From contig NZ_CP025572.1 of the NCBI RefSeq assembly GCF_018336975.1, forward strand, positions 1,645,910 to 1,709,909: 64,000 nt of DNA, given 5' to 3'. Both the position numbers and the translations under genes were made by a program. This document shows positions 44,369 through 64,000 of the stretch, in pieces. The stretch's first letter is position 1; each line of letters starts with the position of its first letter. The DNA comes from Marinomonas sp. CT5. Lineage in GTDB: Bacteria; Pseudomonadota; Gammaproteobacteria; Pseudomonadales; Marinomonadaceae. Under the pieces are notes generated by a model. That model did no database searches and was not told the origin of the DNA. It saw only the letters and a program-made list of their open reading frames with translations.

Positions 44369-44462
44369 GTTTGTAATGTTCTTAGTCAATGAAAAGTGCC
44401 TAAGGTTGGTTGTTGTGTGTACTTTTGGATTACTTAACTGATGTTTCAGAGGATTGAAATAT

Positions 44463-46070: not shown

Positions 46071-46101
46071 ACACATTAAATCTATTTAAAATATTAAGTG
46101 A

Positions 46102-47007: not shown

Positions 47008-47070
47008 ACTTATAACACTTAAGATTACGTTATATGGATGAATGTACCGAATATAGGTGGAGTAAAGTAT

Positions 47071-48936
47071 ATGAAAGAAGCTGAGTGCGAATTGGCAGAA
47101 TGCGGGTGTAATAATGCAACGATGATGGCGGATTATCTATATAGAATTCAACGTAACCTATTTGTAGATTGCTCTAATAAAAGCGCGTTGGTATTTGATA
47201 AAGAACACATTAGTTATCGTGATCTTGGTGCCAATGTAGCGAAAATGATTGGAGCATTTAAACAAGAAGGACTGGTCGCAGGCTCGGTCGTGGCAATTTG
47301 CTTACGAAAGAGCCCTGAATACATTTATACCGTGTTGGCTTGTGCTTTGACTGGTGTTATTTGGCTTCCTATAGACGCAGATTCGCCATTAGCAAGACAA
47401 AACTATTTGTTATCAAATAGCCATGCCGATAGAAGAGTAAGCGACGGGGATGCGGTATTAGAGTCGACGCTTAATGTTCGCTCTATCCTTGAAGAGGATT
47501 ATGAACCAGAAATTGGCGAAGGTTGTTTCGAATACAAGCTAGATAATTCACCTGCTTACTACCTCTACACATCAGGAAGTACTGGGACGCCTAAGTGTGT
47601 TGTGTTGAACAATCAAGCGACGGCAAATGTTTTACAGCAAACCATAGAACGCTGGCACATTAGTGCCAGTGATACTTTTATGGCCGTTACCCCTTTTCAT
47701 CATGATATGTCGGTCTTTGATATTTTTGCTGCTATTTCTGTTGGTGCCACGTTAGTGGTTCCAACCTTTGAGCAGCAAAAGAATGCTTTAGATTGGGCTA
47801 AATTAGTGGCTGAAAATCGCATCACTATTTGGGTGAGTGTGCCTGCTATTGTCGATATGTTGTTTACTGTTGCGAAAAAAGAGCAGTTGTTATCTTTGCG
47901 TCTGATTGCTCAAGGTGGGGATTATATTAAGCCTTCACTAATCTCTCGGATTAGAATGCAGTTGCCTGATGTCGTTTTGTTTTCCTTAGGAGGACCAACT
48001 GAAACGACTATCTGGAGTATTTGGCATGAGATAAGTGAGGTTGATCAAGAAGCTATTCCCTATGGTAAGCCGTTGCTGAATAACCAATATTTTATTCTGA
48101 ATGAACTGCATCAAGCTTGTGCTGTGGGTGAAGTTGGTAGGATGTATATGTCAGGTATGAACTTATCGAATGGTTATTTACTCGACGGAAAAATAATACC
48201 AAAAGACTTCATTCAAATTCAGACTTCAAAGAATAAGATTGAAACGGTTTTTCAAATGAGTGATTTAGGTTACTTCAGAGAAGATCAGACTATTATCTTT
48301 GCAGGAAGAGAAGAAGGATACTTAAAAGTTCAGGGGGTCAGGATAGCCGCCGCTGAGGTCGAAAACGCTATGTCTCAGCATCCGCAAGTTCATGATGCCG
48401 TTGTCGTTTGCTGTACTCATCCTGAAGCTGATGTTATTGAGCTGGTGGCTATTTATACCCAGGAGTTTAAAGCGCTGGATAAACCGTTAGAGTTTGTGAA
48501 TCTAAGGGGTTATTTGCAGGATTATTTGCCAAGTTCACATATTCCCACTAGAGGTTTGTTGGTTGAGGCGTTGCCATTAACCGCAAACGGTAAAATTGAC
48601 CGTAAAGCACTATTAAATATGGCGCAAAAGCAGCTGTATCATCGGTTGTCTTATTCACCGTCTAGTCAATCGAAAGATCTTAAAGGCCTTAGAGATGAAG
48701 GGATAAATGAGGTGGTTTTTGAGGCTTTTGAGCATGTTGTAAAAGACCATGGAGTTCAAACTATTTCAGCGAATACTCAATTGTCCTCATTTAATATTCG
48801 GCCTAAGCAGTTGATGGTAATTGCCAAATATTTGACGGAGCGGGGTGGTGTCGAAATCGATTTTTATGCATTAGCAAGATGTCGGACCGTTGGGGAGGTT
48901 ATCCGTCTCATGCAGGGGTCAATAAACGCAGCCTAG
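47071..48936 (+). CDS. Free-standing NRPS adenylation protein with degenerate carrier (AngR/BasA type)
   Basis: 621 residues from the ATG at 47071 (GGTGGAG upstream); an earlier in-frame ATG at 47038 lacks a ribosome site. The adenylation core is intact at key points (TSGSTGTPK near 167-175, GGPTETT near 307, Lys508 in TANGKIDRKAL), but A8 reads GREEGYLKVQG, which is unusual. Hand-read specificity residues D212 M213 F216 V255 A280 G282 L306 I314 W315 fit no code I know; the LIW end is shared by Cys and Gly codes. A carrier-like C-terminus has FNIRPKQ, with Pro578 in place of Ser. AngR is longer because it has a Cy domain; BasA is similar in size. It probably supplies Cys or Thr in trans. Confidence 0.85.
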   Translation: MKEAECELAECGCNNATMMADYLYRIQRNLFVDCSNKSALVFDKEHISYRDLGANVAKMIGAFKQEGLVAGSVVAICLRKSPEYIYTVLACALTGVIWLPIDADSPLARQNYLLSNSHADRRVSDGDAVLESTLNVRSILEEDYEPEIGEGCFEYKLDNSPAYYLYTSGSTGTPKCVVLNNQATANVLQQTIERWHISASDTFMAVTPFHHDMSVFDIFAAISVGATLVVPTFEQQKNALDWAKLVAENRITIWVSVPAIVDMLFTVAKKEQLLSLRLIAQGGDYIKPSLISRIRMQLPDVVLFSLGGPTETTIWSIWHEISEVDQEAIPYGKPLLNNQYFILNELHQACAVGEVGRMYMSGMNLSNGYLLDGKIIPKDFIQIQTSKNKIETVFQMSDLGYFREDQTIIFAGREEGYLKVQGVRIAAAEVENAMSQHPQVHDAVVVCCTHPEADVIELVAIYTQEFKALDKPLEFVNLRGYLQDYLPSSHIPTRGLLVEALPLTANGKIDRKALLNMAQKQLYHRLSYSPSSQSKDLKGLRDEGINEVVFEAFEHVVKDHGVQTISANTQLSSFNIRPKQLMVIAKYLTERGGVEIDFYALARCRTVGEVIRLMQGSINAA

Positions 48937-48952
48937 GTTACATTGAAGAGGA

Positions 48953-48989
48953 ACAAAAAACAGGGAGATCTCATTCTCCCTGTTTTTTT
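48953..48989. terminator. Bidirectional terminator
   Basis: AAAAAACAGGGAGA / TCTCCCTGTTTTTTT stem between the convergent adenylation-protein gene and the ABC exporter gene. Confidence 0.92.
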
Positions 48990-49006
48990 GTTACTAAGAA
49001 AAAGTG

Positions 49007-50599
49007 CTAGTTTGTTAAATCAATTGTTTGGCTAGGGTGCCAAGGTGTCGCGTCTCTATGGGTGACAAAAATGATGGTCGTATCAATAGAATCAAGAGCT
49101 GCAACAATATCATGCTCTGTCTTTTCATCTAATGCTGAAGTGGCTTCATCTAAAATTAAAATGGGCGCTTGTTTTATCAATGCGCGAGCGATGGTGACGC
49201 GTTGGCGCTCACCACCAGATAATGCGTTACCTTGCTGACCAACTGACTGGTGTATGCCTTCTGGAGAGCGATCAATAATGCTATCTAATGACGCTAGCCT
49301 TGCTGCTCTTTCTATTTCTTGGTCGTTGGCCTTGGGTTTACCAATACGTATGTTATCTGCAAGGGAACCAGTAAAAACGATGGGGTCTTGAGGTACATAG
49401 GCAATAAGGTGAGCTAGTTCTTCATAAGACATTTCTTTGAGTTTTATGTTACCAACTGAAATCGTGCCCTCATCAGGATCATCAAAGCGCATCAGTAGCT
49501 CTAGTAAGGTGCTTTTTCCGCTGCCGCTTGGGCCCGAAATATTCACTCGACTGCCTGAAGGGATGATGGCATTTATATTTTCTAATACGGGTGATTGACT
49601 GACTTGATCGATGCAAATATCAAATGTTGTAGGCGCGGCTTTGGGTGTGCTGGGTTCAGCCAGCTGCGGCGCTTCGGTTGTTTGCTGGAAGTTACGTAAA
49701 GAGGCTTTTAGGTCGTTAACGCCTAATCCAGCGGTTGCTAATTCGCCCAATGGCGCTGATGCACGTCCCATTAAGACCAGTACCGCTAATAGCGTGGGGG
49801 AGGAGTGGTCGTTTCCAGATAGCATCATAAAGACAGCAATACCTGCCATAGGTAAAACACTAGCAAGGGTCGAGATGAATATAGCTGAAGCGGAGGCTAA
49901 ATTGGTTTTTGTTAAGGCTCGTTCTTGCTTTTGCCAACGTTGCTCAAGGCGTTCTATCGCTCGTACGGGACCGGCGGCAGTACGCAAAAGCTCAAGGTGA
50001 TCAACAAATTCCAGGGTAGCGGCAGAGGTATTGCTTTGTGCAGAACTGCGTTGGGCGTCAGCCCGCTTTAAGGCGCGCTGCGATAGAAATTGTACGACCA
50101 ATGATAAGGTTAATAACATGCAAGCAATCAGCGCAATGTTTAATCCCGCGACCGCCCCTATGCCGAAGACTAGACAGAGCGGCAAGAAAGGAGCATGAAG
50201 AAAACTTTGCAATTGGTGAGCGGGGATGCTCATAAACCCAGGAATGCCCTGACCGGCCATGCTGGCTATTTTTGAACGATGATCATTAGTAAACCAAGAC
50301 AGTTTGGTTCTCGCTAGGGCATGGCCTAATGCGGCATATAAGTCTCCTGCGAGTCGTACGCCAGTTAAGTATCCAGAACGATTGACGAAAACCGTGACCA
50401 AAATGGCGACACCAGCACTGGTTAAGATCCATTGGGGCGACCAATTATTAACGATACCAAGCGCTATCATAGTGTAGGCAAAGGCTTCTAATCCTGCGAC
50501 AAGGATCCAACCTAAGCTTACATTCATTAAGCGTTGGCGTGCCGCAGCGGGTAGGGCGGAAAGAGGCGAGTTGTTGGCTTGTTCCATATTGTGTTTCAT
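49007..50599 (-). CDS. ABC half-exporter, siderophore export (BarB/YbtQ-like)
   Basis: 530 residues: six membrane helices (about 1-290) fused to an ABC domain with Walker A GPSGSGKST, Q-loop YVPQDP, signature LSGGERQR and Walker B ILILDEATSALD. It overlaps the preceding half-exporter by 4 bp, so the two probably form a heterodimer. In acinetobactin clusters barA and barB sit next to the histidine decarboxylase gene basG, as here. CydDC-type fused exporters look similar, but context favours siderophore or intermediate export. Confidence 0.86.
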   Translation of the reverse strand: MKHNMEQANNSPLSALPAAARQRLMNVSLGWILVAGLEAFAYTMIALGIVNNWSPQWILTSAGVAILVTVFVNRSGYLTGVRLAGDLYAALGHALARTKLSWFTNDHRSKIASMAGQGIPGFMSIPAHQLQSFLHAPFLPLCLVFGIGAVAGLNIALIACMLLTLSLVVQFLSQRALKRADAQRSSAQSNTSAATLEFVDHLELLRTAAGPVRAIERLEQRWQKQERALTKTNLASASAIFISTLASVLPMAGIAVFMMLSGNDHSSPTLLAVLVLMGRASAPLGELATAGLGVNDLKASLRNFQQTTEAPQLAEPSTPKAAPTTFDICIDQVSQSPVLENINAIIPSGSRVNISGPSGSGKSTLLELLMRFDDPDEGTISVGNIKLKEMSYEELAHLIAYVPQDPIVFTGSLADNIRIGKPKANDQEIERAARLASLDSIIDRSPEGIHQSVGQQGNALSGGERQRVTIARALIKQAPILILDEATSALDEKTEHDIVAALDSIDTTIIFVTHRDATPWHPSQTIDLTN

Positions 50600-52206
50600 A
50601 ACTGGTCCTCCGTTGTATTTGCTTGTGTTAATTCGAGTTGGGCTGCGGCATTTGCGGCTAAAGCTTTATCGTGAGTGACCATCACAATGGTTTTTTCTTG
50701 TTCGCGAGCAAAGCGTTCTAGTTCCACCATTAATTGCTTTGCCTTCCTACTATCTAGAGCACTGGTAGGTTCATCTAGCAATATAACGCTAGCGTTTGAT
50801 AGAAATACCCTAGCGATACCTAGTCGTTGACGTTCACCGCCAGAGAGTGTTTGAGCTTGGGTTTCTAGATCGACTTTTAATTGGGCGCAAAGAAGAGCGG
50901 CATTGAGTTGTTCAATGCTGGCTTCAGGCGCAATTAAACGTAAATTTTCCGCTACGGTAGCAGGCAGAGCATCGCCACCTTGGGGGATCAGCAAAATAGA
51001 TTGGTAGCATGTTAGTTCACTCAATTGAGTTATATCCATTTGCTCTAAAAGAACCTGTCCAACTTGCAGCCTCTCTAATCCAGCCAAGATGCGAAGTAAG
51101 GTCGTTTTTCCTATTCCACTTGGCCCAGTGATGGCATTTAGTGCTTTGGGTTGGAAGGTATAATTTAAGTTATTCAACAGTTGGGAGTCATCGATAGAGA
51201 AATGGGCGTTTTTCAGTGTGAGAGTGGCGGCGTGTTTTTGTTGTGTGATTGGCCCTGTCGACAATGACGGAAGCTCTAATAATGTAATGATTCTGCCCAA
51301 TGCCGCCTTACCAGAGCTGACATAATCAAGCCCATGACCAAGGCGTAGCGCGGGAGTCACGATAGCTAGACTAAAGAATAGTGTGGCTGCCAGCGTTGTC
51401 ATGTTGGCGTCATAAGCAATTAAATACGCGATGGCAAACGTGGCCACGGCCTGTAGCAGAGCCACGGCCATACCCGCTAAGGTTGCCACTTTACTGACCC
51501 ACATAACCATGCTGTTAGTAAAGCGTTGGGTTGAATTGTCATATGCTGCTAGGGCGCCAGATTGCTGTCCATATATCCGATTGACTCGAATGCCACGACT
51601 GTAATCGTCGACTGCTGAGATGATTTCTCCCATAACTTTCATACGTGCTTCGCCATCTCTAGCATTGATGTATGGCACGACAACCAAATAGTATGAAGAG
51701 GCGAGAATGCCGGGTAATAGCACCCATAAGGCCGAGAGCCCCACTATATTGATTAAGAGCAAGATAGCGGCAATAGGTAAAACAACGAAGTTGGTGATTT
51801 CTGATGGCAGGTGAGCCACCATATGGTGCAGTTTTTCAATGTCGCTGGAGACTAGGTTTCGTAGGCTCTGATCGTTTTGCTTGGTAAGTGTTGTTGATGG
51901 TAATCGCACTAAATGATTGGCAACTTGACGTCTTAATCTAGCAGAAAAATCGGCTTCGCCATCGTGGGCTAACCACGAAGCGGCCGCAGCGAAAATAGCG
52001 CCGAGTAACCAGCATAAAACGGCTGAACTTACCCAGCTGAATGATAAGTTACCAACCAATTGAATCAAGCACCACAACGCGGCAAGCATGGCCAAACCTG
52101 ATATTGAAGCGAAGAGTGCGCCAGCTACAAGTTTGGGGAGAGCGGGTCGTAGAGCATCGGCAGTGTCTTTGTTTGTTAAGAGACTGCGTAAAGTGGGCTT
52201 ATTCAT
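50596..52206 (-). CDS. ABC half-exporter, siderophore export (BarA/YbtP-like)
   Basis: About 536 residues from the ATG at 52206, which has GGAGG 8 bp upstream. The open frame extends to 52293, overlapping the decarboxylase gene end, without a ribosome site. Six membrane helices are followed by an ABC domain with GPSGIGKTT, YQSILLIPQGG, LSGGERQR and VILLDEPTSALD. It sits 64 bp after the histidine decarboxylase gene and overlaps its partner by ATGA. Likely one half of a siderophore exporter. Confidence 0.86.
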   Translation of the reverse strand: MNKPTLRSLLTNKDTADALRPALPKLVAGALFASISGLAMLAALWCLIQLVGNLSFSWVSSAVLCWLLGAIFAAAASWLAHDGEADFSARLRRQVANHLVRLPSTTLTKQNDQSLRNLVSSDIEKLHHMVAHLPSEITNFVVLPIAAILLLINIVGLSALWVLLPGILASSYYLVVVPYINARDGEARMKVMGEIISAVDDYSRGIRVNRIYGQQSGALAAYDNSTQRFTNSMVMWVSKVATLAGMAVALLQAVATFAIAYLIAYDANMTTLAATLFFSLAIVTPALRLGHGLDYVSSGKAALGRIITLLELPSLSTGPITQQKHAATLTLKNAHFSIDDSQLLNNLNYTFQPKALNAITGPSGIGKTTLLRILAGLERLQVGQVLLEQMDITQLSELTCYQSILLIPQGGDALPATVAENLRLIAPEASIEQLNAALLCAQLKVDLETQAQTLSGGERQRLGIARVFLSNASVILLDEPTSALDSRKAKQLMVELERFAREQEKTIVMVTHDKALAANAAAQLELTQANTTEDQL

Positions 52207-52270
52207 ATGACTCGCCTCCATTGTCCGTAATTTAGTCTTTTCATAATAATTCCAATCGTTTTTTGTGCCT

Positions 52271-53422
52271 TTATGAGTAGGCAGAGTGCTCAAGAAGTTC
52301 TTGCTGATCTATAATGATCGCCTGGATAAGCTCATCGATTTTCTGGGTGGTTTTATGGTGAGGCATTGTTATTAAATGCGCTAAAGGCCCTGATACTGCT
52401 AGGTGATAGTGCCTTGATACTTTTTCTGAAGGGCTAGGGAAAACCACGGTAATGGAGTTAGGGTTACGCCACGCTCTTATTCCGGCTGCTTGAAACTTAT
52501 TCACGGCGTACTGTGCCATGTTTAAGCAATGTTCTATGCGCTGTCTCCATTCTAGAGGTGAGTATGAATGGATCGCACTCCACATCATTAATACTGAATG
52601 AGCGTTGCGTGATCCGCTAATCGTTTGATCTCGGGCTGAAATATAGTCGACATCGACCGAAATTAGATCGACATTTTTACATTTGGCAACGACAACCCCA
52701 CATGGAATTGGGCTTCCTATCATTTTGTGACCAGACACGCTAATGGAGTCTATGCCATCAGCAAATGTGAAGGGTTGAGGGTTATTTACAAAGGGAAGAA
52801 TCATCCCGCTTAATGCCGCATCTGCATGTAAGTAGTAGTTGGGTCGATCGATATGAATTTGCTTGAGTTGCAATTGGATATTGGCAATATTATCCACTGC
52901 TCCAGACATGGTTGTGCCGATATTGGCAAATATAATTGGCTGTTTGTCCTTGTTGAATAGGATCTTTTGTATCAGGTCATCTGTATTTATTTCACCATTA
53001 TCTAGCGTGTCGACAAGGCAGGATTTCATCCGTAATAATTTGGCTATTTTAGCCACGGAATAGTGTGTCTCTTTGGAATAATACAAAGTCGAATTTGGAA
53101 ACAGCTCCCTTGCTAGGTAGCAACCAAACATGTTTCCTTCAGTGCCGCCATTCGTTACATACCCCCAACTCTCTTGAAAAGATATTTTGAATAACTCGGC
53201 GAAGTACTGCATGACGTCTTTCTCAAACTCGAAAGAGTTCAGTGCGTAATTGCTCAGTTCCCGCCAGTCACCACAATTGTTCAAAGAAAAATTGAAAAAA
53301 CGATATAAAGAGGAGTAATCAAAATCTGCAGACTCTGGATAGCCGATATTAAAGTACTGATGCTGTAAACAGTAGCTCCAAAAGGAGTCTAAACGTTCTT
53401 TATTTGCAGTAGATAGATTCAT
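52271..53422 (-). CDS. hdc: PLP-dependent histidine decarboxylase (AngH/BasG type)
   Basis: 383 residues, the usual length. Very similar along its whole length to the Morganella-type enzyme as I recall it: [12 protein letters not shown] near 25-36, [15 protein letters not shown] at 86-100, [31 protein letters not shown], and the PLP lysine K233 in [13 protein letters not shown]. It converts histidine to histamine, the precursor of the N-hydroxyhistamine end of anguibactin and acinetobactin. First gene of a minus-strand run with two exporter halves, behind a Fur box. Confidence 0.93.
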
Positions 53423-53793
53423 AATAACTCCGTTTATTTGATTAACAACACTAAGGTAAGAAAGCGTTAGATTTCAGGGTTACGCCGCTCGTTACCTTTA
53501 TAACCCTATGTTTTATATTTACTTTTTAATTTTGATCCTGCTTGGGAGTTCTCTTAAAGATACGGTGCTTGACAACGGATTTTATGGTATCGATAATGAG
53601 AATGATAATCAACTGTATATTTTGTAGGGTTTTACCATTGCTTCAATTCATTCGTTTGATTGGGCAAATAGTCTGATCGTATGGGTTGTATGAGGAAAGA
53701 AAGGGTTTGTAAAAACGACGGTTAAGTAGCGCTAGTAAGTAACAGGGCGTTGATGTTTATTTAATTTTATTAAGGTTTGAGCAGAGGGATACT
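53423..53793. other. 371-bp divergent regulatory region with Fur box
   Basis: No gene. It separates the decarboxylase gene (-) from the PCP-C gene (+). A strong Fur box lies at 53592-53610. AGGGTTA near 53476 and TAACCCT near 53500 could form a small hairpin in the decarboxylase 5' leader. The rest is AT-rich. Confidence 0.7.
53592..53610. promoter_or_regulatory. Fur box between decarboxylase and PCP-C genes
   Basis: GATAATGAGAATGATAATC matches the Fur consensus at 16 of 19 positions. It can repress both divergent transcripts under iron-replete conditions. Confidence 0.82.
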
Positions 53794-55953
53794 ATGTTTA
53801 CACAGGCTTTTAATTCTAGTGATACAGGGACATTTCAGGTTAGTGAGTATGAAGAAGAAATCTGGATGTTACAGTTGCAACAACCCGAACGTGTTCCTAG
53901 AAATATATACGCTTGGAAGATGGGTAATAGTGTTGATCTCTCGTTGTTGAGAAAAGCCATATTAAACGTTATCAAAGAACTCCCAAACCTAAATGCTCGA
54001 TATAGCTTTAGTGATGAAGGTGAGATCATCAAATATTATTCGCAAGAATATGATGCATGTTTAACTGATTCTACATTGCAAGGTGATGTTGCCAGCTATT
54101 TAGAAACGCGTCGAAATTTAGCATGGGATGCTGCTACAAATCCTCCTTTTAGTAGCGTTATTGTACAGACTCAGCAAGAGAGTCTTTTGGTTATCGATTT
54201 ACATCCTATGCTGGATCAAAGTCATACATTAGAAGAGTTGTTGGCCGCTATAAAACATCATTATTTACTGCTCTCTTCATCAGGTCTGGCGCTCTTATTG
54301 ACACCACTTGAAGGATTCTCTATGGAACAAGGACATGGCCTAGAGCAGGCTATGCCATCCAGTACAGAACAGTCAAGTAAGAACCAAGTAGCAAACATCA
54401 TACTAAATGAATTTCGTCTCGCTTTAGTTGACCCTGAGATGGCTTTGGACGATGACTTTTTTGATCATGGCGGCCACTCTCTACTGGCGACTCGTGTGAT
54501 TGGTAAACTTATGCAGTCTCATGGTATTGAGGTGAGTTTTAATGATTTTTTTAAAGCTTCTACCGCATTATCATTGGCTGAACGTGCGGTTGCCAATGGG
54601 CACGTTGAGCAGAAGGTTATTACAACTCTGTCGCAAGAAAGTGCGGCGCCACTTACATTTGCGCAAGATTTTTTATGGCAAGCCTATTCTGCTTATGAGT
54701 TTAGCCCAATCTATAATTTACCTTTTGTTATATCCTTCGTTAATCGCGTTGACGAAGGGGTATTTCTTGAGGCGTTCACTGATATTTTAGTGCGCCATAC
54801 AGGTCTACGAACAAAGTTTCATACGCAAGACGATGAGGTTACTCAGCATATCATTCCAGTTACGGAATTGAGCCGTTATAAATGGTTTTGGCGCGGAGAT
54901 GAAAGTGTAGATAGGACACTTTCTTATGAAGCTGGGTATAAATTCGACCTTACACGCGAACTGCCTTTAAGAGTGCGTTTCATGAATGTTTCTGAAGGCG
55001 AATCCCAAGTGTTATCTTTGTTAATTCATCACATGGTAATTGATGAATGGTCTTTGAATACCTTGATGTCAGACTTATCTCATGCCTATATGGCTCGTGC
55101 AAATAACCAAGAGCCAATTTGGGGGGCGCCTGCACGTAATATCAATGATTTTTCTCTGCTGCAATCTGAACAGGGTTTAAATCAGCAGCATGTTGATTAT
55201 TGGGTGAGCAAATTACATGGCGCGAAGAAAGGCTTAAGTCTTCCAGGGACAAACAATCCAGTTAATATATCGACCAAGGCTCAATGGGCGGAGCTTGATC
55301 TTGGAAAAGACGCATTTCAAACATTATCGGCCTTAGCTAAGCAGCAGGAATCGTCTCTTTTTAATATTTTGTACACTGCGATTGCCTTATCCCTGCATCT
55401 AGAAGGGAAACTAGATGACATTGTCATAGGTACTTCTGCATCAGGACGAACCAATGCTGATTTCTTTGATACGATTGGGTATTTCACCACTATGGTTGCT
55501 CATCGAGTGCAGTTTGATCGCCAGCAAACTGTTTATGAGTTACTGCAAAGTATCACCCAGCAAATTAATGAATCGCTGAGTTATGCTGATATTCCGATTA
55601 ACTTGATTCAGCAAGAATTGGGTATGCCAATTAGTGAAGGTCTACTGTTTGATGTTTATATACATATCCATTCTAATAATGCGTTAAATGGCTCACTAAA
55701 ATCGCCAACAGGCGACATATTTTACCAACAAGTTCCCCCAGAAAAGAATGACTCCATGTTTGGCTTACACTTTGAGGTTATGGATGATGTTTCGCCTGAT
55801 GGTCATCATGACTTACGAATCGTGACTACGTTTCAAGAAGCGCGTTTCTCGTTGGAGCAGGTCAATAGCATTCTTGCAAAAGTGAGTAAGGTATTAACCA
55901 TGCTACATGTTGAAAGTGGAGGTTCGAAAACGCTGGATCAAGTGCAACTATGA
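53794..55953 (+). CDS. NRPS carrier-condensation protein (AngM/BasB type)
   Basis: 719 residues, almost the length of AngM (about 715). Residues 1-170 are a shortened condensation-like region whose active-site motif is decayed to LHPMLDQ (about 136-142). A working carrier domain follows, DDDFFDHGGHSLL with Ser229, then a full condensation domain (about 285-710) with HHMVIDEWS at 412-420. In the anguibactin scheme this protein carries the Cys (or Thr) residue and its C domain transfers the acyl chain to N-hydroxyhistamine, releasing product without a thioesterase. Alone on the plus strand behind a Fur box. Confidence 0.9.
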   Translation: MFTQAFNSSDTGTFQVSEYEEEIWMLQLQQPERVPRNIYAWKMGNSVDLSLLRKAILNVIKELPNLNARYSFSDEGEIIKYYSQEYDACLTDSTLQGDVASYLETRRNLAWDAATNPPFSSVIVQTQQESLLVIDLHPMLDQSHTLEELLAAIKHHYLLLSSSGLALLLTPLEGFSMEQGHGLEQAMPSSTEQSSKNQVANIILNEFRLALVDPEMALDDDFFDHGGHSLLATRVIGKLMQSHGIEVSFNDFFKASTALSLAERAVANGHVEQKVITTLSQESAAPLTFAQDFLWQAYSAYEFSPIYNLPFVISFVNRVDEGVFLEAFTDILVRHTGLRTKFHTQDDEVTQHIIPVTELSRYKWFWRGDESVDRTLSYEAGYKFDLTRELPLRVRFMNVSEGESQVLSLLIHHMVIDEWSLNTLMSDLSHAYMARANNQEPIWGAPARNINDFSLLQSEQGLNQQHVDYWVSKLHGAKKGLSLPGTNNPVNISTKAQWAELDLGKDAFQTLSALAKQQESSLFNILYTAIALSLHLEGKLDDIVIGTSASGRTNADFFDTIGYFTTMVAHRVQFDRQQTVYELLQSITQQINESLSYADIPINLIQQELGMPISEGLLFDVYIHIHSNNALNGSLKSPTGDIFYQQVPPEKNDSMFGLHFEVMDDVSPDGHHDLRIVTTFQEARFSLEQVNSILAKVSKVLTMLHVESGGSKTLDQVQL

Positions 55954-56066: not shown

Positions 56067-57608
56067 TTATAAGGTAAAGCACCAAAAATTGATGCTGTAC
56101 GGGCTGACAAGATTAAGTTTAGAAAGCTTTGGAAAATCGCGGAGTTTAACTTTGCCATTTTTAAACTCGGGTTTGATGCCGTTGATAAGGATTTTCTTTG
56201 ATGTAAGCGAGTCTGCCGTGATTTCAAAACGTTTTTTCTTTGACCCAAACCCATTGCAGTGAAGAATTTTTGGGGAGGCGGACATGTTGATGATGAGTAG
56301 GGTACATTTGCCTTGTTTTTTTGCACTGTGGCAATAAATTTGTACATATGGATCATTGCTTTGAACATCAAATACCAACTCACCCATGAGCTTTCCCCAA
56401 AGCCAACTAACCCAATAGTCTGGGTTGGGTTTCAAGGTTTTTCGGTTTATAAGCGCGTAATCTCCACCAATTAAGCTTTGTCTTATCATGACCTTTTGAC
56501 CTATTTTGGCACCTCGGCCAAGTTGGTCGGCCCACCAAAAACAAGATACAAAACGGTCTGAAAGCTTAGCTTGGCCTCCACATTGGGCCGAACCAGTTTC
56601 TCCAGTCCAGAGTTGAGCATTTGGTTGAGAGAGGTCGCGCATTCTCTCTAGTTGCTTTGAGTAGCGTTCATAATCCTTAAGGGAATTCGGGGAGAGGATA
56701 TTCTTAATTGTGGCAGAGCGGGTTCTGACTGGGGAACGGCTGCTTTGAAAAGGGTAATAATGCCAATCAACGATGTCGAGCGGTTCTTCTAAATAGCCTA
56801 AGAATGGGGCGGATAAGTTGCTAAGTGGCTTGATGGTTTCCCCCAGTCTTGGCCAGAAAGCACTGCCGGGGCCGGCAATTTTACTGTTGGGAGAATATTG
56901 ACGAACACAGCGAATAAAAGCGTCGTAGTCTTTGGCGAGTTTTTTCGCACTAGGCTGAGATGTTAAACCATGGAATGCCCAATAGGCATTCAGTTCATTC
57001 CCTAGTTCACAAATATCGATTTTTTGTCCATGGGCTTGGCTGTATTGTAATAAGTTCTTAACCTCAATATCTTGCCAGAAGCCTTGTTTTCGTCGCTCAA
57101 ATAGGCCGTATTTCATGGTGAACATGAGTGCTAACTCATTGCGTTGGCAAAAATCGTGAAGCCGATGCCACATGCTCTGTGTGATGAGAAGAGTGCTGGA
57201 AGACGGGAACGATGATATGGGGCTTGTAAAGTAGTGCACTTTATCGGCTTCTGAGCCACCAACGCGGACATAAGCAGGACCAAGGGCTTTTACAAATGAG
57301 TCAAGCTTGTCTTGCTGAAGGTTGAGTGGTTCTACTCGCTGCGTACCCAGTCCACGCTGTGTACCTTTACTGCCTTCCCACCAAAACCCACCTGCTAATA
57401 CTGAAATATCAATAGAAAAAGATAAGTACCTTGGGTCTATCGCTGTAATAGGTGTTGCACTATTCAGGTTAACAATTAGCGATTTGTTCTGGCGAATATT
57501 GGGTTGTCTTTGTAATCGAGTCTCAAACAAAAGGCGGCTTCCGTCACAAAAGGTTTTGCTAGACTGCAATAAAAATGTGACATTTGTATGATGCCTTAAA
57601 GAAGTCAT
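56067..57608 (-). CDS. GH79-family glycosidase (heparanase/beta-glucuronidase-like)
   Basis: Up to 513 residues. GPAYVRVGGSEAD, the acid/base Glu in CELGNELNAYW, DIVDWHYYPF and the probable nucleophile Glu in LWTGETGSAQCGG are the pattern of GH79 heparanase-like retaining hydrolases, which cleave beta-glucuronides in glycosaminoglycans or similar polymers. No signal peptide is visible. The annotated ATG has no good ribosome site and lies only 20 bp from the start of the divergent lipocalin gene, so the true start may be further in (a TTG after GGAAGCCGCC is one option). The C-terminal beta-sandwich is short. Confidence 0.8.
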   Translation of the reverse strand: MTSLRHHTNVTFLLQSSKTFCDGSRLLFETRLQRQPNIRQNKSLIVNLNSATPITAIDPRYLSFSIDISVLAGGFWWEGSKGTQRGLGTQRVEPLNLQQDKLDSFVKALGPAYVRVGGSEADKVHYFTSPISSFPSSSTLLITQSMWHRLHDFCQRNELALMFTMKYGLFERRKQGFWQDIEVKNLLQYSQAHGQKIDICELGNELNAYWAFHGLTSQPSAKKLAKDYDAFIRCVRQYSPNSKIAGPGSAFWPRLGETIKPLSNLSAPFLGYLEEPLDIVDWHYYPFQSSRSPVRTRSATIKNILSPNSLKDYERYSKQLERMRDLSQPNAQLWTGETGSAQCGGQAKLSDRFVSCFWWADQLGRGAKIGQKVMIRQSLIGGDYALINRKTLKPNPDYWVSWLWGKLMGELVFDVQSNDPYVQIYCHSAKKQGKCTLLIINMSASPKILHCNGFGSKKKRFEITADSLTSKKILINGIKPEFKNGKVKLRDFPKLSKLNLVSPYSINFWCFTL

Positions 57609-57628
57609 TTTTTATAAAGGGGAATTCA

Positions 57629-58171
57629 ATGAAATTTATTGTTTGGACAATGGCGATTTTGTTGGCTGGCTGTACGAGTGCTCCTAAAAATATTAATCCA
57701 GTAACTCAGTTTCAAGTGGAGCGTTATTTGGGCACTTGGTATGAAATTGTGCGCCAAGACCATGCTTTTGAAGAAGGTTTGTCGAACGTTACAGCAACTT
57801 ATTCTATGAGAGATGACGGCGGTATTGATGTATTAAATCGAGGCTACTCTGCAGAAGATAAGGCGTGGCGAGAAGCAGAAGGTCGGGCTTATTTTGTTAA
57901 TTCCTCTGATGTTGGGCATTTAAAAGTGTCTTTCTTTGGGCCTTTCTATGGTGCTTATGTGATCTTTGAGCTGGACAAAAAAGATTATCAGTATGCCATG
58001 ATCTCAGGTCCAAGTCGGGACTACTTCTGGTTATTATCACGAACTCCAACAATGCCGAATACGGTAAAGCGCCGATTGCTAGCTAAAGCAGAGAGCTTAG
58101 GATTTCCGATGGATAAGTTGGTTAATGTGGTGCAAAGGCAAAATGTTCAACAAGTCGATAGCGCCCAGTAA
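57629..58171 (+). CDS. blc: Outer-membrane lipocalin Blc
   Basis: 180 residues from the ATG at 57629 (AAAGGGGA upstream); the frame is open 45 bp further, but that gives no signal. The lipoprotein signal MKFIVWTMAILLAGC ends in a lipobox Cys. Lipocalin signatures follow: VERYLGTWYEIVRQDHAFEEGLSNVTATYS (GxW), YAMISGPSRDYFWLLSRTP, and a C-terminal helix. Bacterial Blc binds lysophospholipids or other lipids at the outer membrane during envelope stress. Confidence 0.92.
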   Translation: MKFIVWTMAILLAGCTSAPKNINPVTQFQVERYLGTWYEIVRQDHAFEEGLSNVTATYSMRDDGGIDVLNRGYSAEDKAWREAEGRAYFVNSSDVGHLKVSFFGPFYGAYVIFELDKKDYQYAMISGPSRDYFWLLSRTPTMPNTVKRRLLAKAESLGFPMDKLVNVVQRQNVQQVDSAQ

Positions 58172-58194
58172 TTTAGGGCTTACAGCTAGCGTTA

Positions 58195-58743
58195 CTAGAA
58201 AAAAGAGCAGGTGATAGAGTTTTTGGCTGCATCGTTTGAGCAAACAGCGGAATAAGCATTAGGACTTTGGATAAACGCATAATGAGCATTTGAGTCTCTG
58301 CACAAGGCCAAAAAGTTTTCATATTCTTGCTTAAAGACGGCTTTTTCGTATTCAAAATCTATGATGCTTTCATCTGGGGCAATGTCTTTATCAAGTGCAT
58401 CGGCCTCAGCTCGGGTAATACGGTAATTTAATGCATTGTATTGTCGACGTATTTGGTGACAGTAAGCACTATTTGGTGTGGTTTCATTGCATTCTGTCAT
58501 TGATGTTTCGAGTTTTTCTTTTTCTGCTTTGTAACGCTTTAAGTCATCTACGGCTTGATTATTTTTGATTTGCCCTTGCTCAGCTCTGATAGAGGCAAGA
58601 TTTAATTTTATTCTCGTTTGATTCAAGCGTTCTTCTTTTTTCAAACATGATTTTCCAAAATTGATTAACTCATTGCTATGAGCTGTACCCATGACGCTAA
58701 AGCTAAATAAAATAATGCCAGTTTTAATGAGTGAAATAGTCAT
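58195..58743 (-). CDS. Small exported helical protein, function unknown
   Basis: 182 residues. Signal peptide (about residues 1-24, ending GTAHSNE). The mature part is mostly helical and charged (NQTRIKLNLASIRAEQGQIKNNQAVDDLKRYKAEKEKLETSMTE, probably coiled coil) with six cysteines spaced along it (SCLKK, ECNE, YCHQ, LCRD, VCSND, TCSFF), which could form disulfides in the periplasm. No family recognised. It is convergent with blc and divergent from the aspartic protease gene. Confidence 0.65.
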   Translation of the reverse strand: MTISLIKTGIILFSFSVMGTAHSNELINFGKSCLKKEERLNQTRIKLNLASIRAEQGQIKNNQAVDDLKRYKAEKEKLETSMTECNETTPNSAYCHQIRRQYNALNYRITRAEADALDKDIAPDESIIDFEYEKAVFKQEYENFLALCRDSNAHYAFIQSPNAYSAVCSNDAAKNSITCSFF

Positions 58744-58905: not shown

Positions 58906-60126
58906 ATGAAAAAAAACCTATCAATGAATGGTGAAGCAACCGGAATTTCTATTACGCTTGATCGTGGCCCTTATCAAAATAATGGCGCATCGCCTTGGTA
59001 TGCTTGCGTTGGTTTGGGAACCTCACCTCAGCCATTAAAATTTTCCTTTGATACTGGTAGTAACTTTATTTGGGTTACTTCTAGTTTATGCAAACCAAAT
59101 ACTTGTGAGCACTATGGAGATAAACAGTTCGTCTATCAACTATCGTCAAGCTTCACTTGGGTTGATGAGCAGGTAATGGCGGTTAGCTTCGGTCCTTGGG
59201 GAAGCATGGAAGTTCAAACGGGTCGTGATGTATTTACCTTAACGCCTCATCTAAACCAATCTGACATCGGATCTGTGTCTGTATTATCGGATATTTACCT
59301 TGCGAAATCTTATGAAGGCCCTCAGTTTAGTGAATTGGACTGGGATGGTGGAATTGGTGTTCCAAGTATGACGGACGTAACTGAGACAGCGGCCTATTCA
59401 CCTTATCGATATCAGTCTTTTGCTAACCAAGCAGAAGCCGCCTCTTTTCATTTTTTTCAAAGCTTGATTGAGCAAAGAATTGTGAGTCCTCAATGTCCTT
59501 ATGTAGGGTTTTTGACGGATATTGACAGCAAAGCAGGCCAGGTTCAATTTGGGCAGCTTGATGATGATTATAGGAACAGTCGAGAATATTTGTTTTTACC
59601 TTGGGATCAATACGCAGCACCGTATTTATGGACGAGTAAGATTTTCTCCCTTTCTATTGGTCATAAACAGGTTATTTCCCCTGAGTCTTTGCAGCAAGAG
59701 CCTTATTTTTTTGCTTTAGATTCTGGCTCCTCGGCTTTTAAAGGTGATGTTACTTTGATGAATACTCTTTACAACATCGCGTCTCAAACAAAAGAGGATG
59801 TTGTGATTGAGATTGGCCGTACCGATGCTGGAGATGTGGGGAAACTAGTCGTTACTGCGGATATGTACAATGTTTTTATTGAAGAAGGAGAGGATAAGGG
59901 AAAGGTCATAACTCAGTTTCAACCTCTTGAAGGGGGAGATTATATTGCCTTGGTAGGCTCTGTCATGATGGATTATCTGTATACCGTGTACGAATATTCA
60001 ATTCATTACATTGATGGTAAGCCAAATCTTTTGCCTGTCGGTATGTGGGTTTTTAATAAACCCTCGGGGCCTAGAGTCATTACAACCCTCCAAGAGCTTC
60101 CAGCGCGAATTTTTGATGTTAACTGA
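58906..60126 (+). CDS. Pepsin-family (A1) aspartic protease homologue
   Basis: 406 residues with two catalytic-type Asp motifs in a bilobed arrangement: FDTGSNFIWV (Asp49) and FALDSGSSAF (Asp272). DWDGGIGVP corresponds to the DGILGLG segment of pepsins. The second motif is DSG rather than DTG, as in some members. The usual flap Tyr-Gly-Thr/Ser-Gly is not evident (FGPWGSMEV is in its place). No signal or propeptide is visible, so like the shewasins it is probably cytoplasmic or exported by another route. AAGGAG precedes the ATG. Followed 27 bp later by the avidin-like gene, probably co-transcribed. Confidence 0.85.
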   Translation: MKKNLSMNGEATGISITLDRGPYQNNGASPWYACVGLGTSPQPLKFSFDTGSNFIWVTSSLCKPNTCEHYGDKQFVYQLSSSFTWVDEQVMAVSFGPWGSMEVQTGRDVFTLTPHLNQSDIGSVSVLSDIYLAKSYEGPQFSELDWDGGIGVPSMTDVTETAAYSPYRYQSFANQAEAASFHFFQSLIEQRIVSPQCPYVGFLTDIDSKAGQVQFGQLDDDYRNSREYLFLPWDQYAAPYLWTSKIFSLSIGHKQVISPESLQQEPYFFALDSGSSAFKGDVTLMNTLYNIASQTKEDVVIEIGRTDAGDVGKLVVTADMYNVFIEEGEDKGKVITQFQPLEGGDYIALVGSVMMDYLYTVYEYSIHYIDGKPNLLPVGMWVFNKPSGPRVITTLQELPARIFDVN

Positions 60127-60153
60127 TTTCTCTAATAATTTAAGGGGTAAGGT

Positions 60154-60930
60154 ATGTCTTTGATTTTAAATGGTACTTGGGAAAATAGTTACGGCTCTAC
60201 GATGACATTAGAAGTGGGCAGCGATGGCTTGATTTTAGGTGAATATGGTTCACATACTGGATCAACTGGAACTTATATCGTTGTTGGCTATTGTCGACCG
60301 ATCAATCCAGTTCAAGATGCTTCGCAACCATTAGTGCTGTCTATTTATTGGCGTTCAACTGGCGATGAAGAGCCCGATGAAGGTTCGCATTGGGTATCAA
60401 CATATTGTGGTCAGTTAGACAGTACTGGACAAATGACGGTGATGAACTCCTTAGTAACGACAACTCAGTATCAGAATTTTGAGCCTGGTGATTACATCGA
60501 TAAGCTGGTTTTCACTAAATCCTCTTCAGCGTTACCTACTAACCATATTAAACATCTGACCCAGCAAGACACTGAAGTGGCTAACCCCATAAATGGGATC
60601 TGGCAGAGTACAGAGCAACGCGTTGAACTGGCTTTGGCTTTACAGGATCAGCGGTACGGCTTTGTGTCTGGTTGGCTAAGCTATAATCATGAGCGAGTAA
60701 AGGTATATGGTTTTACTGACACCTTGCCTCAACAACATAACAATATATTACAAAGTGTCAGTTTGAGTGGTTATATGATGAACACAGGCCAGCCTATTTC
60801 GCTTGTTGGCCGTATTGACCAAGATGCTGATGTGTTAGCGGTTTCTAGGTGGCTAGCTAACTCGACTTCCGCTGATGATGCTTTCTTTCAAGCGAGTTCG
60901 ATGAATTGGCAGCTGGTTAAGCAATCCTAG
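60154..60930 (+). CDS. Protein with tandem avidin-like domains
   Basis: 258 residues, two beta-barrel repeats. The first (about 5-123) follows streptavidin: NGTWENSYGSTMTLEV, LGEYGSHTGSTGTYIVVG, IYWRS, TYCGQL and KLVFTKS. The ligand-site Asn, Ser, Tyr, Ser and one Trp equivalents are kept (N11, S15, Y31, S33, W66), while the residues matching streptavidin Trp108, Trp120 and Asp128 appear to be replaced. The second (about 146-256, NGIWQSTEQRVELALALQ to SMNWQLVK) is more diverged. No signal peptide. Strong ribosome site (AAGGGGTAAGG). Biotin binding cannot be assumed; pairing with the protease gene suggests a joint role. Confidence 0.75.
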   Translation: MSLILNGTWENSYGSTMTLEVGSDGLILGEYGSHTGSTGTYIVVGYCRPINPVQDASQPLVLSIYWRSTGDEEPDEGSHWVSTYCGQLDSTGQMTVMNSLVTTTQYQNFEPGDYIDKLVFTKSSSALPTNHIKHLTQQDTEVANPINGIWQSTEQRVELALALQDQRYGFVSGWLSYNHERVKVYGFTDTLPQQHNNILQSVSLSGYMMNTGQPISLVGRIDQDADVLAVSRWLANSTSADDAFFQASSMNWQLVKQS

Positions 60931-60959: not shown

Positions 60960-63308
60960 ATGAACCTAAGTGACGTTTTTAACCAACAAGAACATGATCA
61001 AACCATCATTGATTGTTTTATAGAAATGTGGCGTTATTCCGCTGACCTGATGTTTATTATGGCAGTGGAAAAAAACGGTGAGTTTTCCCTTTATGATAAC
61101 AACCCGGCATCTCGGGCTGTTATGGGGTTAGAGCAAGGAGCAGAAATACATCGACTCAATTTAAGGGTTCAGTTTGGGGATGAGATGGCAGAGCAGGTCT
61201 ATAAGACCTATGAGCAAGTCATAGAAAGTGGCAAGCCTACTTCGATTGAACAGACAGGGATTCGTGGTGATGGTAGTCGTATTTATTTTGATACTTTGTT
61301 TGTGCCTATATTTAATTCTGCTGGGGATCCTGTCTTTGTTTGTGGGGTAAGTCGTGATATCACAAAAATCAAAGATGCTGAAAATGTGGCATTGCAAGCC
61401 AATGAAAAGTTACTGGAATACAGCGCTGCTTTAGAAAGTGTTAATCAAGATTTAGACCGTAAGGTTCAAGAACGAACTTCTGAACTGGAAACGGCGAAGC
61501 GAATAGTGGAAGAAGCGCTTGAGGCAAAATCTTCTTTTGTGGCTCGTATGAGTCATGAAATACGAACGCCAATTAATGCTGTTATTGGTTTAAGTCATCT
61601 GACGCTTAAGACGCCATTAAGCTCATCACAGAAAGATCACCTGCATAAAATATTAGCCTCTGGAGAAGTGTTACTTCGTCTGGTAAATGATGTCTTGGAT
61701 TTTTCGAAGATTGAAGCAGGAAAAATGGCTTTAGAAGTGGTGCCATTCTCTCTTGATTCTATCGTTCAATATGCCATTGATATGAATAGTCTCAAAGCTA
61801 AAGAAAAAAACTTATCGCTTAATGTCGATATTTCTAAGTCTCTTCCTAAAATGCTGTTAGGTGATCCATTACGCATTCAACAAGTTTTGGTTAACTTGGT
61901 TACTAATGCTGTTAAATTTACGGAATACGGTGGTGTTAGTATACGTGTTTATTCTGAAACGAATATCGATAACGAGATGTTATTCAGATGTGATGTTATT
62001 GATACTGGAATCGGTATCTCAAAAGCATATTCAGATAAATTATTTAAAGCATTTCAGCAGGCAGATGACAGTATTACCCGCGAATTTGGCGGTACAGGCT
62101 TAGGACTCACTATTTCCAGACAGCTTTGTGAGTTAATGGGAGGTGATATTTGGGTTAAAAGTGAGATAGGCCAAGGCTCAACTTTTAGTTTTACTTTTCC
62201 TCTTAATACTCCTGATTCATTGTTAAATATCGAAAATCATATAGAGAATGAAGAAAAAAACATTCCTGATTTATCTGCTTTTTCAGTGCTACTAGCGGAA
62301 GATAATATAATTAACCAAAAAGTTATTTTAGGTTATTTAGAGGATACTTTTATAAAAGTAGATGTTGTCGAAAATGGTCAAGAAGCTATCAATAAGTTGA
62401 ATGAGCAAGAGTATGATCTGGTTCTGATGGACATACAGATGCCTGTAATGGATGGTTTAACGGCGACAAGAAAAATTAGACAGTCTAGTGTTTATGGTGA
62501 TATTCCAATTATTGCGATGACCGCCCATGTCTCAGAAGAGGCAAAAGAACAATCTGCCAAAGCCGGAATGAATACTCACCTTGATAAGCCTATTAAAAAG
62601 CCTGAGTTATACAAAAATTTACAAAATTATCTTACTAATCAAGAGTATTATAATACTTCACATAAAGCTGGCATAGCTTCTGATAGTGATGCGTTAACAA
62701 ATATTCAGGCATTATCAGAGCTTGTAAAAATAGAGACATTAGATACAGCTAAGGCGATAAAAAAACTTAGTGGAAAAGAAAAACTATATATCAACATAAT
62801 ACAAGCCTTTTATAAAAAGTATGTTGATTTTCCTTTGGAGAATTTTTTTGGTGATAATATGGTAAGGACGATTCATACATTAAAGTCTAATTTAGCCTAT
62901 ATTGGAGCCTATGAGTTGTCCTCATATTGCTTGATCATTGAAGATCAATTAAAGGAAAATATGTTAAACGAAGCGTCTGTTGAAAATCTAATAATTGCCT
63001 TGAAGAAGCTAGTGACTGATATCGGTGAGGCGATAGCGCCTTTCGTATCTAGTATTAATAAGAGTAGTACGCCTTCTTATAATGAAAAAGAAATTGTTTC
63101 TAATATTGAAGATATTCTCGTTTTATTAAATTCGTCAGATTTTTCGGTAGAAGATAGACTTAATAGGCTGCGTCAAATGGTGCATGGAAGCAAATATGCC
63201 TTGGATATTGAAAGTTTAATTAATGATGTAGAGAAAGTTGAGTTTGAGTTGGCTGCGATTAAAGCAAAAGAACTTATTTTAGCCATTCAAGGTAATTTAC
63301 GGCTATGA
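60960..63308 (+). CDS. Hybrid sensor histidine kinase (PAS-HisKA-HATPase-REC-Hpt)
   Basis: 782 residues, no membrane segment. PAS domain about 20-140, coiled coil 140-190, HisKA with His199 in ARMSHEIRTP, HATPase with NLVTNAVKF, DTGIGIS and GGTGLGLTIS, receiver with Asp491 in LVLMDIQMPVMDG and Lys543, and a C-terminal Hpt domain with His639 in HTLKSN. A BarA/ArcB-like phosphorelay in one chain. Its stop overlaps the next start (ATGA), so its partner is the REC-GGDEF protein. It starts 29 bp after the avidin-like gene, possibly the same transcript. Confidence 0.92.
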   Translation: MNLSDVFNQQEHDQTIIDCFIEMWRYSADLMFIMAVEKNGEFSLYDNNPASRAVMGLEQGAEIHRLNLRVQFGDEMAEQVYKTYEQVIESGKPTSIEQTGIRGDGSRIYFDTLFVPIFNSAGDPVFVCGVSRDITKIKDAENVALQANEKLLEYSAALESVNQDLDRKVQERTSELETAKRIVEEALEAKSSFVARMSHEIRTPINAVIGLSHLTLKTPLSSSQKDHLHKILASGEVLLRLVNDVLDFSKIEAGKMALEVVPFSLDSIVQYAIDMNSLKAKEKNLSLNVDISKSLPKMLLGDPLRIQQVLVNLVTNAVKFTEYGGVSIRVYSETNIDNEMLFRCDVIDTGIGISKAYSDKLFKAFQQADDSITREFGGTGLGLTISRQLCELMGGDIWVKSEIGQGSTFSFTFPLNTPDSLLNIENHIENEEKNIPDLSAFSVLLAEDNIINQKVILGYLEDTFIKVDVVENGQEAINKLNEQEYDLVLMDIQMPVMDGLTATRKIRQSSVYGDIPIIAMTAHVSEEAKEQSAKAGMNTHLDKPIKKPELYKNLQNYLTNQEYYNTSHKAGIASDSDALTNIQALSELVKIETLDTAKAIKKLSGKEKLYINIIQAFYKKYVDFPLENFFGDNMVRTIHTLKSNLAYIGAYELSSYCLIIEDQLKENMLNEASVENLIIALKKLVTDIGEAIAPFVSSINKSSTPSYNEKEIVSNIEDILVLLNSSDFSVEDRLNRLRQMVHGSKYALDIESLINDVEKVEFELAAIKAKELILAIQGNLRL

Positions 63309-64000
63309 CAGAAAAGCAGAGTGTTCTAGTCATTGATGATGAAAAAATCAACTTAAAACTTATCCGCGAGATGCTGAATGATGATGTCGATATTATGCTT
63401 GCCCAGAGTGGAGAGCAGGGCATTCGTAAAGCGGTTGAATACCAGCCGGATCTTATTTTATTGGATGTTTTGATGCCACAAATGGATGGCTTTGAAACGA
63501 TGAACCACCTTCGACATGATGCACGAACCAGCGCTATTCCTGTGATTTTCATTACGGCTTTAAACGATTCAAGTCATGAAGAAAAAGCACTCTTAATGGG
63601 AGCCAGTGATTATATTCAGAAACCATTGCACACTAATATTGTACAAGCCCGTGTGCGTTTGCATTTGCAATTGGTTAAGCAACGTAAAATGCTTGAGCTG
63701 CTCGCTAATATTGATCCTTTGACCTCTCTTGCAAATCGTCGAAAATATCAAGATGTATTTGATCGTGAATGGAAGGATTGTGTCGATAAGAAAAGCTGCA
63801 TGTCTTTGTTGGTTATTGATATCGATAATTTTAAACAATATAACGATTGTTATGGTCACGCCACTGGCGATAAAGTATTAAAGCAGGTAGCGAGTGTATT
63901 GGCGTTGCAAGTTTTGGAAAAGGGCACAGTCGCTCGTTATGGTGGAGAAGAATTTGTTGTTTTGTTGCCTAGCCATTCTCAGGCAGACTCTATGGAGATC
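63305..64000 (+). CDS. Response regulator with GGDEF domain (diguanylate cyclase), truncated by window end
   Basis: The first 232 residues are visible. A receiver domain (VLVIDDEKINLKLI, phospho-Asp in LILLDVLMPQMDG, Lys in YIQKPL) is followed by a GGDEF domain (IDPLTSLANRRKYQDVF, IDIDNFKQYNDCYGHATGDK and the active-site ARYGGEEFVVLLP). It should make c-di-GMP when phosphorylated by the upstream kinase through its Hpt domain. The 4-bp overlap supports the pairing. The 3' end lies outside the window. Confidence 0.92.
   Translation, partial: MTEKQSVLVIDDEKINLKLIREMLNDDVDIMLAQSGEQGIRKAVEYQPDLILLDVLMPQMDGFETMNHLRHDARTSAIPVIFITALNDSSHEEKALLMGASDYIQKPLHTNIVQARVRLHLQLVKQRKMLELLANIDPLTSLANRRKYQDVFDREWKDCVDKKSCMSLLVIDIDNFKQYNDCYGHATGDKVLKQVASVLALQVLEKGTVARYGGEEFVVLLPSHSQADSMEI

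Follow-up and report, generated by a model that had tools for sequence, protein, structure and literature searches.

The locus described here occupies the end of the analysed window, a stretch of 64,000 nucleotides from the genome of Marinomonas sp. CT5, and comprises a pepsin-type protease gene, the gene of a tandem avidin-like protein and two signalling genes:

58906..60126, forward strand: A1 (pepsin-family) aspartic protease gene, 406 amino acids, without obvious signal peptide, catalytic residues Asp49 and Asp272
59050..59052, forward strand: first catalytic aspartate, D49 in FDTGS, unchanged in all 43 sequences of the alignment
59188..59202, forward strand: flap motif FGPWG, aligned to the chymosin flap, with F95 in the place of pepsin Tyr75; F95, G96, P97, W98 and G99 invariant (43/43)
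59719..59721, forward strand: second catalytic aspartate, D272 in LDSGS, likewise unchanged in all 43 sequences
60154..60930, forward strand: tandem avidin-like protein gene, 258 amino acids, a natural single-chain pseudo-dimer
60166..60525, forward strand: avidin barrel 1 (residues 5-124), which keeps the pocket residues N11, S15, Y31, S33 and W66
60592..60924, forward strand: avidin barrel 2 (residues 147-257), without the pocket residues
60960..63308, forward strand: PAS-HisKA-HATPase-REC-Hpt hybrid histidine kinase, separated from the avidin gene by 29 bp
63305..64000, forward strand: response regulator with a GGDEF (diguanylate cyclase) domain, running off the window, 79% identical to L057:13338-14261, which is REC plus GGDEF

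The protease and avidin genes are two separate genes, divided by a gap of 27 bp that is in frame and closed by stop codons, and the stop codon of the kinase overlaps the start codon of the GGDEF regulator (ATGA, 63305-63308). Upstream of the pair, the window encodes a GH79-type glycoside hydrolase N-terminal domain (PF03662; 56067-57608), a relative of which lies near the pair in 12 of the 15 Marinomonas loci, and, between this hydrolase and the pair (57584-58743), a bacterial lipocalin (PF08212; near the pair in 9/15 loci) and a small protein without family (12/15 loci). Further upstream, the region 44454-55953 encodes proteins of adenylation type, two that resemble ABC exporters, one that resembles a PLP enzyme and, as its last product and the only one scanned (PF00550, PF00668), a carrier-condensation protein; judged by its sequence, the region resembles a small non-ribosomal peptide, perhaps siderophore, cluster.

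The product of the first gene has the bilobed A1 fold with one catalytic aspartate motif per lobe that distinguishes peptidase family A1, and the first-pass annotation of a pepsin homologue in a bacterium was thereby borne out. The flap tyrosine of the family, Tyr75, is replaced by Phe95 throughout the subfamily (43/43), and the assignment to family A1, as read from the sequence, stands despite this replacement. When compared with the hydrophobic-hydrophobic-Gly pattern, the second psi-loop (L349-V350-G351) fits and the first (G149-I150-G151) is one residue off. We predict that the protease is probably enzymatically active. Rawlings and Bateman 2009 (PMC2761423) described Phe as a common replacement of Tyr75 and considered the Marinomonas homologue much more likely to be inactive, in view of the Phe at position 75 and of the psi-loop motif. 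Mmwyl1_1642 of Marinomonas sp. MWYL1 (PMC2761423) resembles the protease of the window in family, length (406 amino acids), D49, F95 and the lack of a signal peptide, the second catalytic aspartate being D274 there and D272 here. Shewasin D (2016, PMC4814920), also a member of family A1 without signal peptide, was found mainly in the cytoplasm, and the shewasins were characterised as active (PMC4814920), in contrast to the probable inactivity assigned to the Marinomonas homologue in 2009 (PMC2761423). The dN/dS values of about 0.13-0.23 obtained in three usable ortholog pairs fit purifying selection on these coding sequences; three other pairs were left out, namely G000-G033 and G037-G028, which include minus-strand loci in the wrong orientation, and G035-G018 (protease dN 0.206, dS 2.483; avidin dS infinite). 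Four avidin-less relatives (P0110, P0127, P0144 and P0117) start with segments that by eye look like Tat or lipoprotein leaders, and exported forms of this protease branch may therefore exist.

The product of the second gene was found by structure prediction to contain, as had been proposed from the sequence, two avidin-like barrels, with the eight-stranded streptavidin fold that characterizes the avidin family. In streptavidin, biotin is contacted by N23, S27, Y43, S45, W79, W92, W108 and D128. The residues N11, S15, Y31, S33 and W66 of barrel 1 are the equivalents of the first five, and these positions are kept in all ungapped distinct rows of the pocket alignment (N23 and S27 in 72/72, Y43, S45 and W79 in 73/73). 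The position of W92 is occupied by Y, L, F or other residues, that of W108, whose register is uncertain by one, by N or H in 72 of 73 rows, and that of D128 by Leu in 72 of 73 rows; a conserved D116 situated two residues from the D128 position is lost in G383, G447 and P0113. The count left out three rows, M_L023 because it was not in the orientation of the gene and M_L028 and M_L030 because they were empty, and included a fragment, P0029, without the N23 region. Since the residues that hold the ureido ring are kept but the aromatic cage is rebuilt, barrel 1 is expected either to have a weak affinity for biotin or to take up a different cyclic urea or a lactam. A first comparison between barrels was weak (probability 6.6-12%) and was followed by a deeper one; the avidin portion of one fusion, used as a protein query, matched nothing besides itself.

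The protease is present in 15 of the 48 Marinomonas genomes searched, the same 48 being covered by the family-level search, and each of these 15 has the avidin gene as its immediate neighbour in the same orientation, truncated in G006 where the contig ends. The other 33 genomes gave no protease match, and avidin matches only as fragments in two of them (G005 and G029). The gap between the two genes measures 3-55 bp in most loci, and because its length and frame differ among genomes, a programmed read-through joining the two genes was ruled out. A chance adjacency was rejected on the strength of the 15 Marinomonas loci and of the fusions found elsewhere. The protease, the avidin protein and two fusions matched none of the PADLOC models, the weak matches of the kinase lying over its receiver domain; phage records gave no match to protease or avidin, and plasmid records gave one tandem avidin and no protease. 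On these grounds, a mobile or defence element was ruled out.

Outside the genus, protease matches were found in 2 genomes of a sample of 369 from the class and in 3 of 398 from the phylum, and order-level searches gave 1/78 around G447 (G447 itself) and 2/20 around G383 (one further case); G458 was left out as a weak match (E 1.6e-4). Among the eight protease-bearing genomes that the class, phylum and follow-up searches brought together, seven (G383, G447, G632, G738, G849, G857 and G947) carry a fusion in which the avidin part is C-terminal of the protease, and one (G050) has a protease without neighbouring avidin. The co-occurrence noticed in a single genome is thus upheld by the neighbourhood search, both within and beyond Marinomonas. 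The protease comes first in 22 of 22 aligned fusions and also in that of G947 (L083:9301-10785), which joins a divergent protease to a single avidin barrel; this lone barrel keeps the pocket residues, and barrel 1 would therefore be the essential one of the tandem protein. In the case of G857, one TGA lies inside the match, and the aligned reading frame (L076, 662 amino acids) is open through both parts. Signal-like hydrophobic segments were seen by eye at the start of the divergent fusions L043 and L049, and a protein with a T6SS Tle1-like phospholipase domain (PF09994; L072:2517-4313) is encoded a few kb before the G447 fusion. On the other hand, G806 contains a tandem avidin without neighbouring protease.

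Among 120 protease relatives listed of 228 database matches, 16 unite the two Pfam domains in a single chain, the named carriers including Vibrio tapetis and V. vulnificus; the chains of the other 104 lack an avidin domain, a count that concerns the chain and leaves its neighbours apart. Celerinatantimonas yamalensis and Aliagarivorans marinus possess separate protease and avidin genes from contigs of equal size (81862 and 62350, respectively), which suggests that the two genes are neighbours there. A quick tree of 128 proteases, uncertain in the placement of its most divergent rows, does not unite the fusions in a single group; the fusion label changes three times by the count of the tool, and two changes are forced by well-supported branches.

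In all 14 readable Marinomonas loci, the kinase is the next gene after the pair, and the GGDEF regulator follows it directly in 11 of these 14, after one extra ORF in L068, and not in L058 and L066. In the loci L066 to L068, the order protease-avidin-kinase is kept though nearly all other flanking genes differ, with the regulator in two of the three. In L070 (G029) and L078 (G005), the kinase and GGDEF genes remain and the protease and avidin genes are gone except for avidin fragments, which is a loss of the pair alone. Elsewhere, the G947 fusion is preceded at a distance of 30 bp by a gene in which PAS and GGDEF motifs were recognised by eye, and a hybrid kinase adjoins the G383 fusion on the other strand. 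From this neighbourhood, a signalling output of the pair through the kinase and the GGDEF regulator is plausible in Marinomonas.

A different neighbourhood was observed in other lineages. In the genus g273, which is probably Pseudomonas because fusions of P. fluorescens and P. veronii are reported in the available part of PMC8033661, the hydantoinase/oxoprolinase proteins HyuA and HyuB are encoded upstream of the module on the same strand in five of five loci (Pfam names from one locus), with an Asp/Glu/hydantoin racemase gene in four of them. In G050, HyuA and HyuB adjoin the lone protease on the other strand, and on a Novosphingobium plasmid the tandem avidin gene heads a row encoding a LuxR regulator, a TonB receptor, a racemase, HyuA and HyuB. 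At L077:9460-10236, a tandem avidin gene standing alone directly follows the transporter gene of a hydantoinase operon, with no space for a protease between. The HyuA proteins of g273, G050 and the Novosphingobium plasmid are 46-55% identical to one another, against 32-33% for six full-length Marinomonas HyuA matches; the best named model of the scanned HyuA was caprolactamase, below the cut-off. Within the 15 pair-bearing Marinomonas genomes, no HyuA exceeded 25% identity, one partial match reaching 25% (G023), and the genes seen near the G383 and G447 fusions included neither HyuA nor HyuB; the hydantoinase link would therefore be at most lineage-specific. Hydantoin catabolism as a universal function was ruled out by the pair-bearing Marinomonas genomes without such a HyuA, and a regulator common to the G447 and Novosphingobium loci by the dissimilarity of the two large proteins concerned (E 1.7).

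From the folds, the conserved pairing, the fusions, the pocket residues and the gene order, we propose, tentatively and with somewhat less than even confidence, that the two genes encode a split, probably cytosolic, protease-avidin enzyme in which the avidin protein is a ligand-binding companion that steers the protease. The first gene would provide a probably active and probably cytosolic A1 aspartic protease, and the second a natural single-chain avidin pseudo-dimer, whose barrel 1 would hold the ligand, either biotin, weakly, or another cyclic urea or lactam, and whose barrel 2, deprived of its pocket, would be a structural partner. The avidin protein would act with the protease in trans, as it would in cis in the fused relatives, and the binding of the ligand would either bring the protease to ligand-bearing substrates, for example biotinylated ones, or switch its activity. 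This state would be relayed, in Marinomonas, by the histidine kinase and the GGDEF regulator encoded in the same row. The model of the paired proteins has a pTM of 0.69 and does not fix their mutual placement; its VIA list contains pepsin-type chains only, because the protease domain fills the list.

The first-pass annotation had considered the avidin-like protein as inhibitor, immunity factor or specificity partner of the protease, or as sharing a ligand with it. By analogy with the staphostatins and the AprI/Inh-type inhibitors, a co-expressed inhibitor would restrain the cytosolic protease; a downstream avidin gene at 3-55 bp in most Marinomonas loci would suit this role, and a protease that lacks a signal peptide and any evident propeptide has to be kept under control. 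We nevertheless regard it as rather unlikely, since in G806 and on the Novosphingobium plasmid the tandem avidin has no protease beside it (the plasmid collection gave no protease match, the Novosphingobium chromosome lying outside its scope), the protease occurs without neighbouring avidin in G050, and an inhibitor has no need of invariant ureido-pocket residues. The inhibitor and immunity roles are thereby weakened, and a specificity partner or the binding of a shared ligand is preferred. The repeated fusion in one order, the strict adjacency when split, the purifying selection and the invariant pocket in one barrel make the ligand-binding companion fit better than a dedicated inhibitor; its ligand may recruit a substrate, gate the activity or simply be carried.

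What the ligand would be is a matter on which two other explanations differ. The module could handle biotin itself, barrel 1 catching biotin or biotinyl-peptides and the protease freeing biotin from biotinylated protein, for scavenging or turnover. The ureido contacts and W79 are kept, the extended avidins look like potent biotin binders according to the available part of Laitinen et al. (PMC8033661), and the signal-like segments seen by eye in L043 and L049 would suit scavenging, but the replacement of W92 and W108 and the Leu at the D128 position leave this explanation doubtful. Among the minority of neighbouring genes that were scanned, none was recognised as a biotin gene. Alternatively, the avidin would carry or sense a hydantoin, lactam or other cyclic amide opened by HyuA/HyuB in a catabolic pathway. 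A cyclic ureide resembles the ring held in streptavidin by the kept residues, the two genes stand beside the module in all five g273 loci, in G050 and on the Novosphingobium plasmid (with the racemase too), and their HyuA proteins are closer to one another than to the Marinomonas matches; this role appears improbable all the same, the link being absent from 15/15 Marinomonas pairs and unseen at G383 and G447, and the protease having so far no place in such a pathway. A bolder form of the ligand-binding companion, which we offer as speculative and on balance unlikely, is a ligand-gated switch, in which an asymmetric avidin dimer with one live pocket would sense a cyclic ureide or biotin-like metabolite and turn the cytosolic pepsin on or off, the result being conveyed to the histidine kinase and the cyclic-di-GMP pathway in Marinomonas and tied to ring-breaking operons in other lineages.

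The pairing, initially thought to be undescribed, has precedents, as protease-avidin fusions are published in the part of Laitinen et al. (PMC8033661) available. The same part lists Marinomonas avidins in the extended clade, as avidins with an extension of about 150 residues in which no domain was recognised; no separate adjoining protease gene, second barrel, kinase/GGDEF genes or hydantoinase was found in it, and "hydantoin" has no occurrence in the main text of the paper. In the open-licence literature, PMC8033661 was the only source found for an A1 or pepsin-like peptidase with avidin and for Marinomonas with avidin, the only match for avidin, aspartic protease and operon concerned hens, and nothing was found for avidin with hydantoinase (subscription papers and preprints were outside the scope). 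The word avidin is absent from the main texts of PMC2761423, on bacterial pepsin homologues, and PMC4814920, on shewasin D. Within this open-licence scope, and for PMC8033661 within its available part, no description was thus found of the Marinomonas pair as a split operon, of its second barrel, of the kinase/GGDEF genes or of a hydantoinase neighbourhood.

What purpose do bacterial avidins serve, and what purpose intracellular pepsins? Gene order and repeated fusion tie these two questions together here, and the single kept pocket, the natural single-chain dimer and the kinase and hydantoinase neighbours offer concrete ligands and readouts to try.

Staphostatins are small beta-barrels encoded beside their protease, and the AprI/Inh-type inhibitors have a streptavidin-like fold; like the Marinomonas avidin, both are small beta-barrel proteins encoded beside a protease. 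Unlike them, the avidin forms one chain with the protease in relatives, possesses a small-molecule pocket that is conserved, and is also encoded in places where no protease adjoins it. In comparison with the engineered single-chain dimeric streptavidin (PDB 6s4q and 6s50), to which it is 18-19% identical, the tandem avidin is natural, and only one of its two barrels keeps the ureido-binding residues. Finally, in the fusions of the "Extended" and beta-6 avidin clades in the available part of Laitinen et al. 2021 (PMC8033661), the A1 peptidase is N-terminal of the avidin domain; the one reverse-order fusion reported there, from Flexibacter roseolus, has no avidin-first counterpart among the fusions analysed here, and the Marinomonas pair departs from these one-chain proteins in that its two domains are encoded by separate genes, its relatives being fused.
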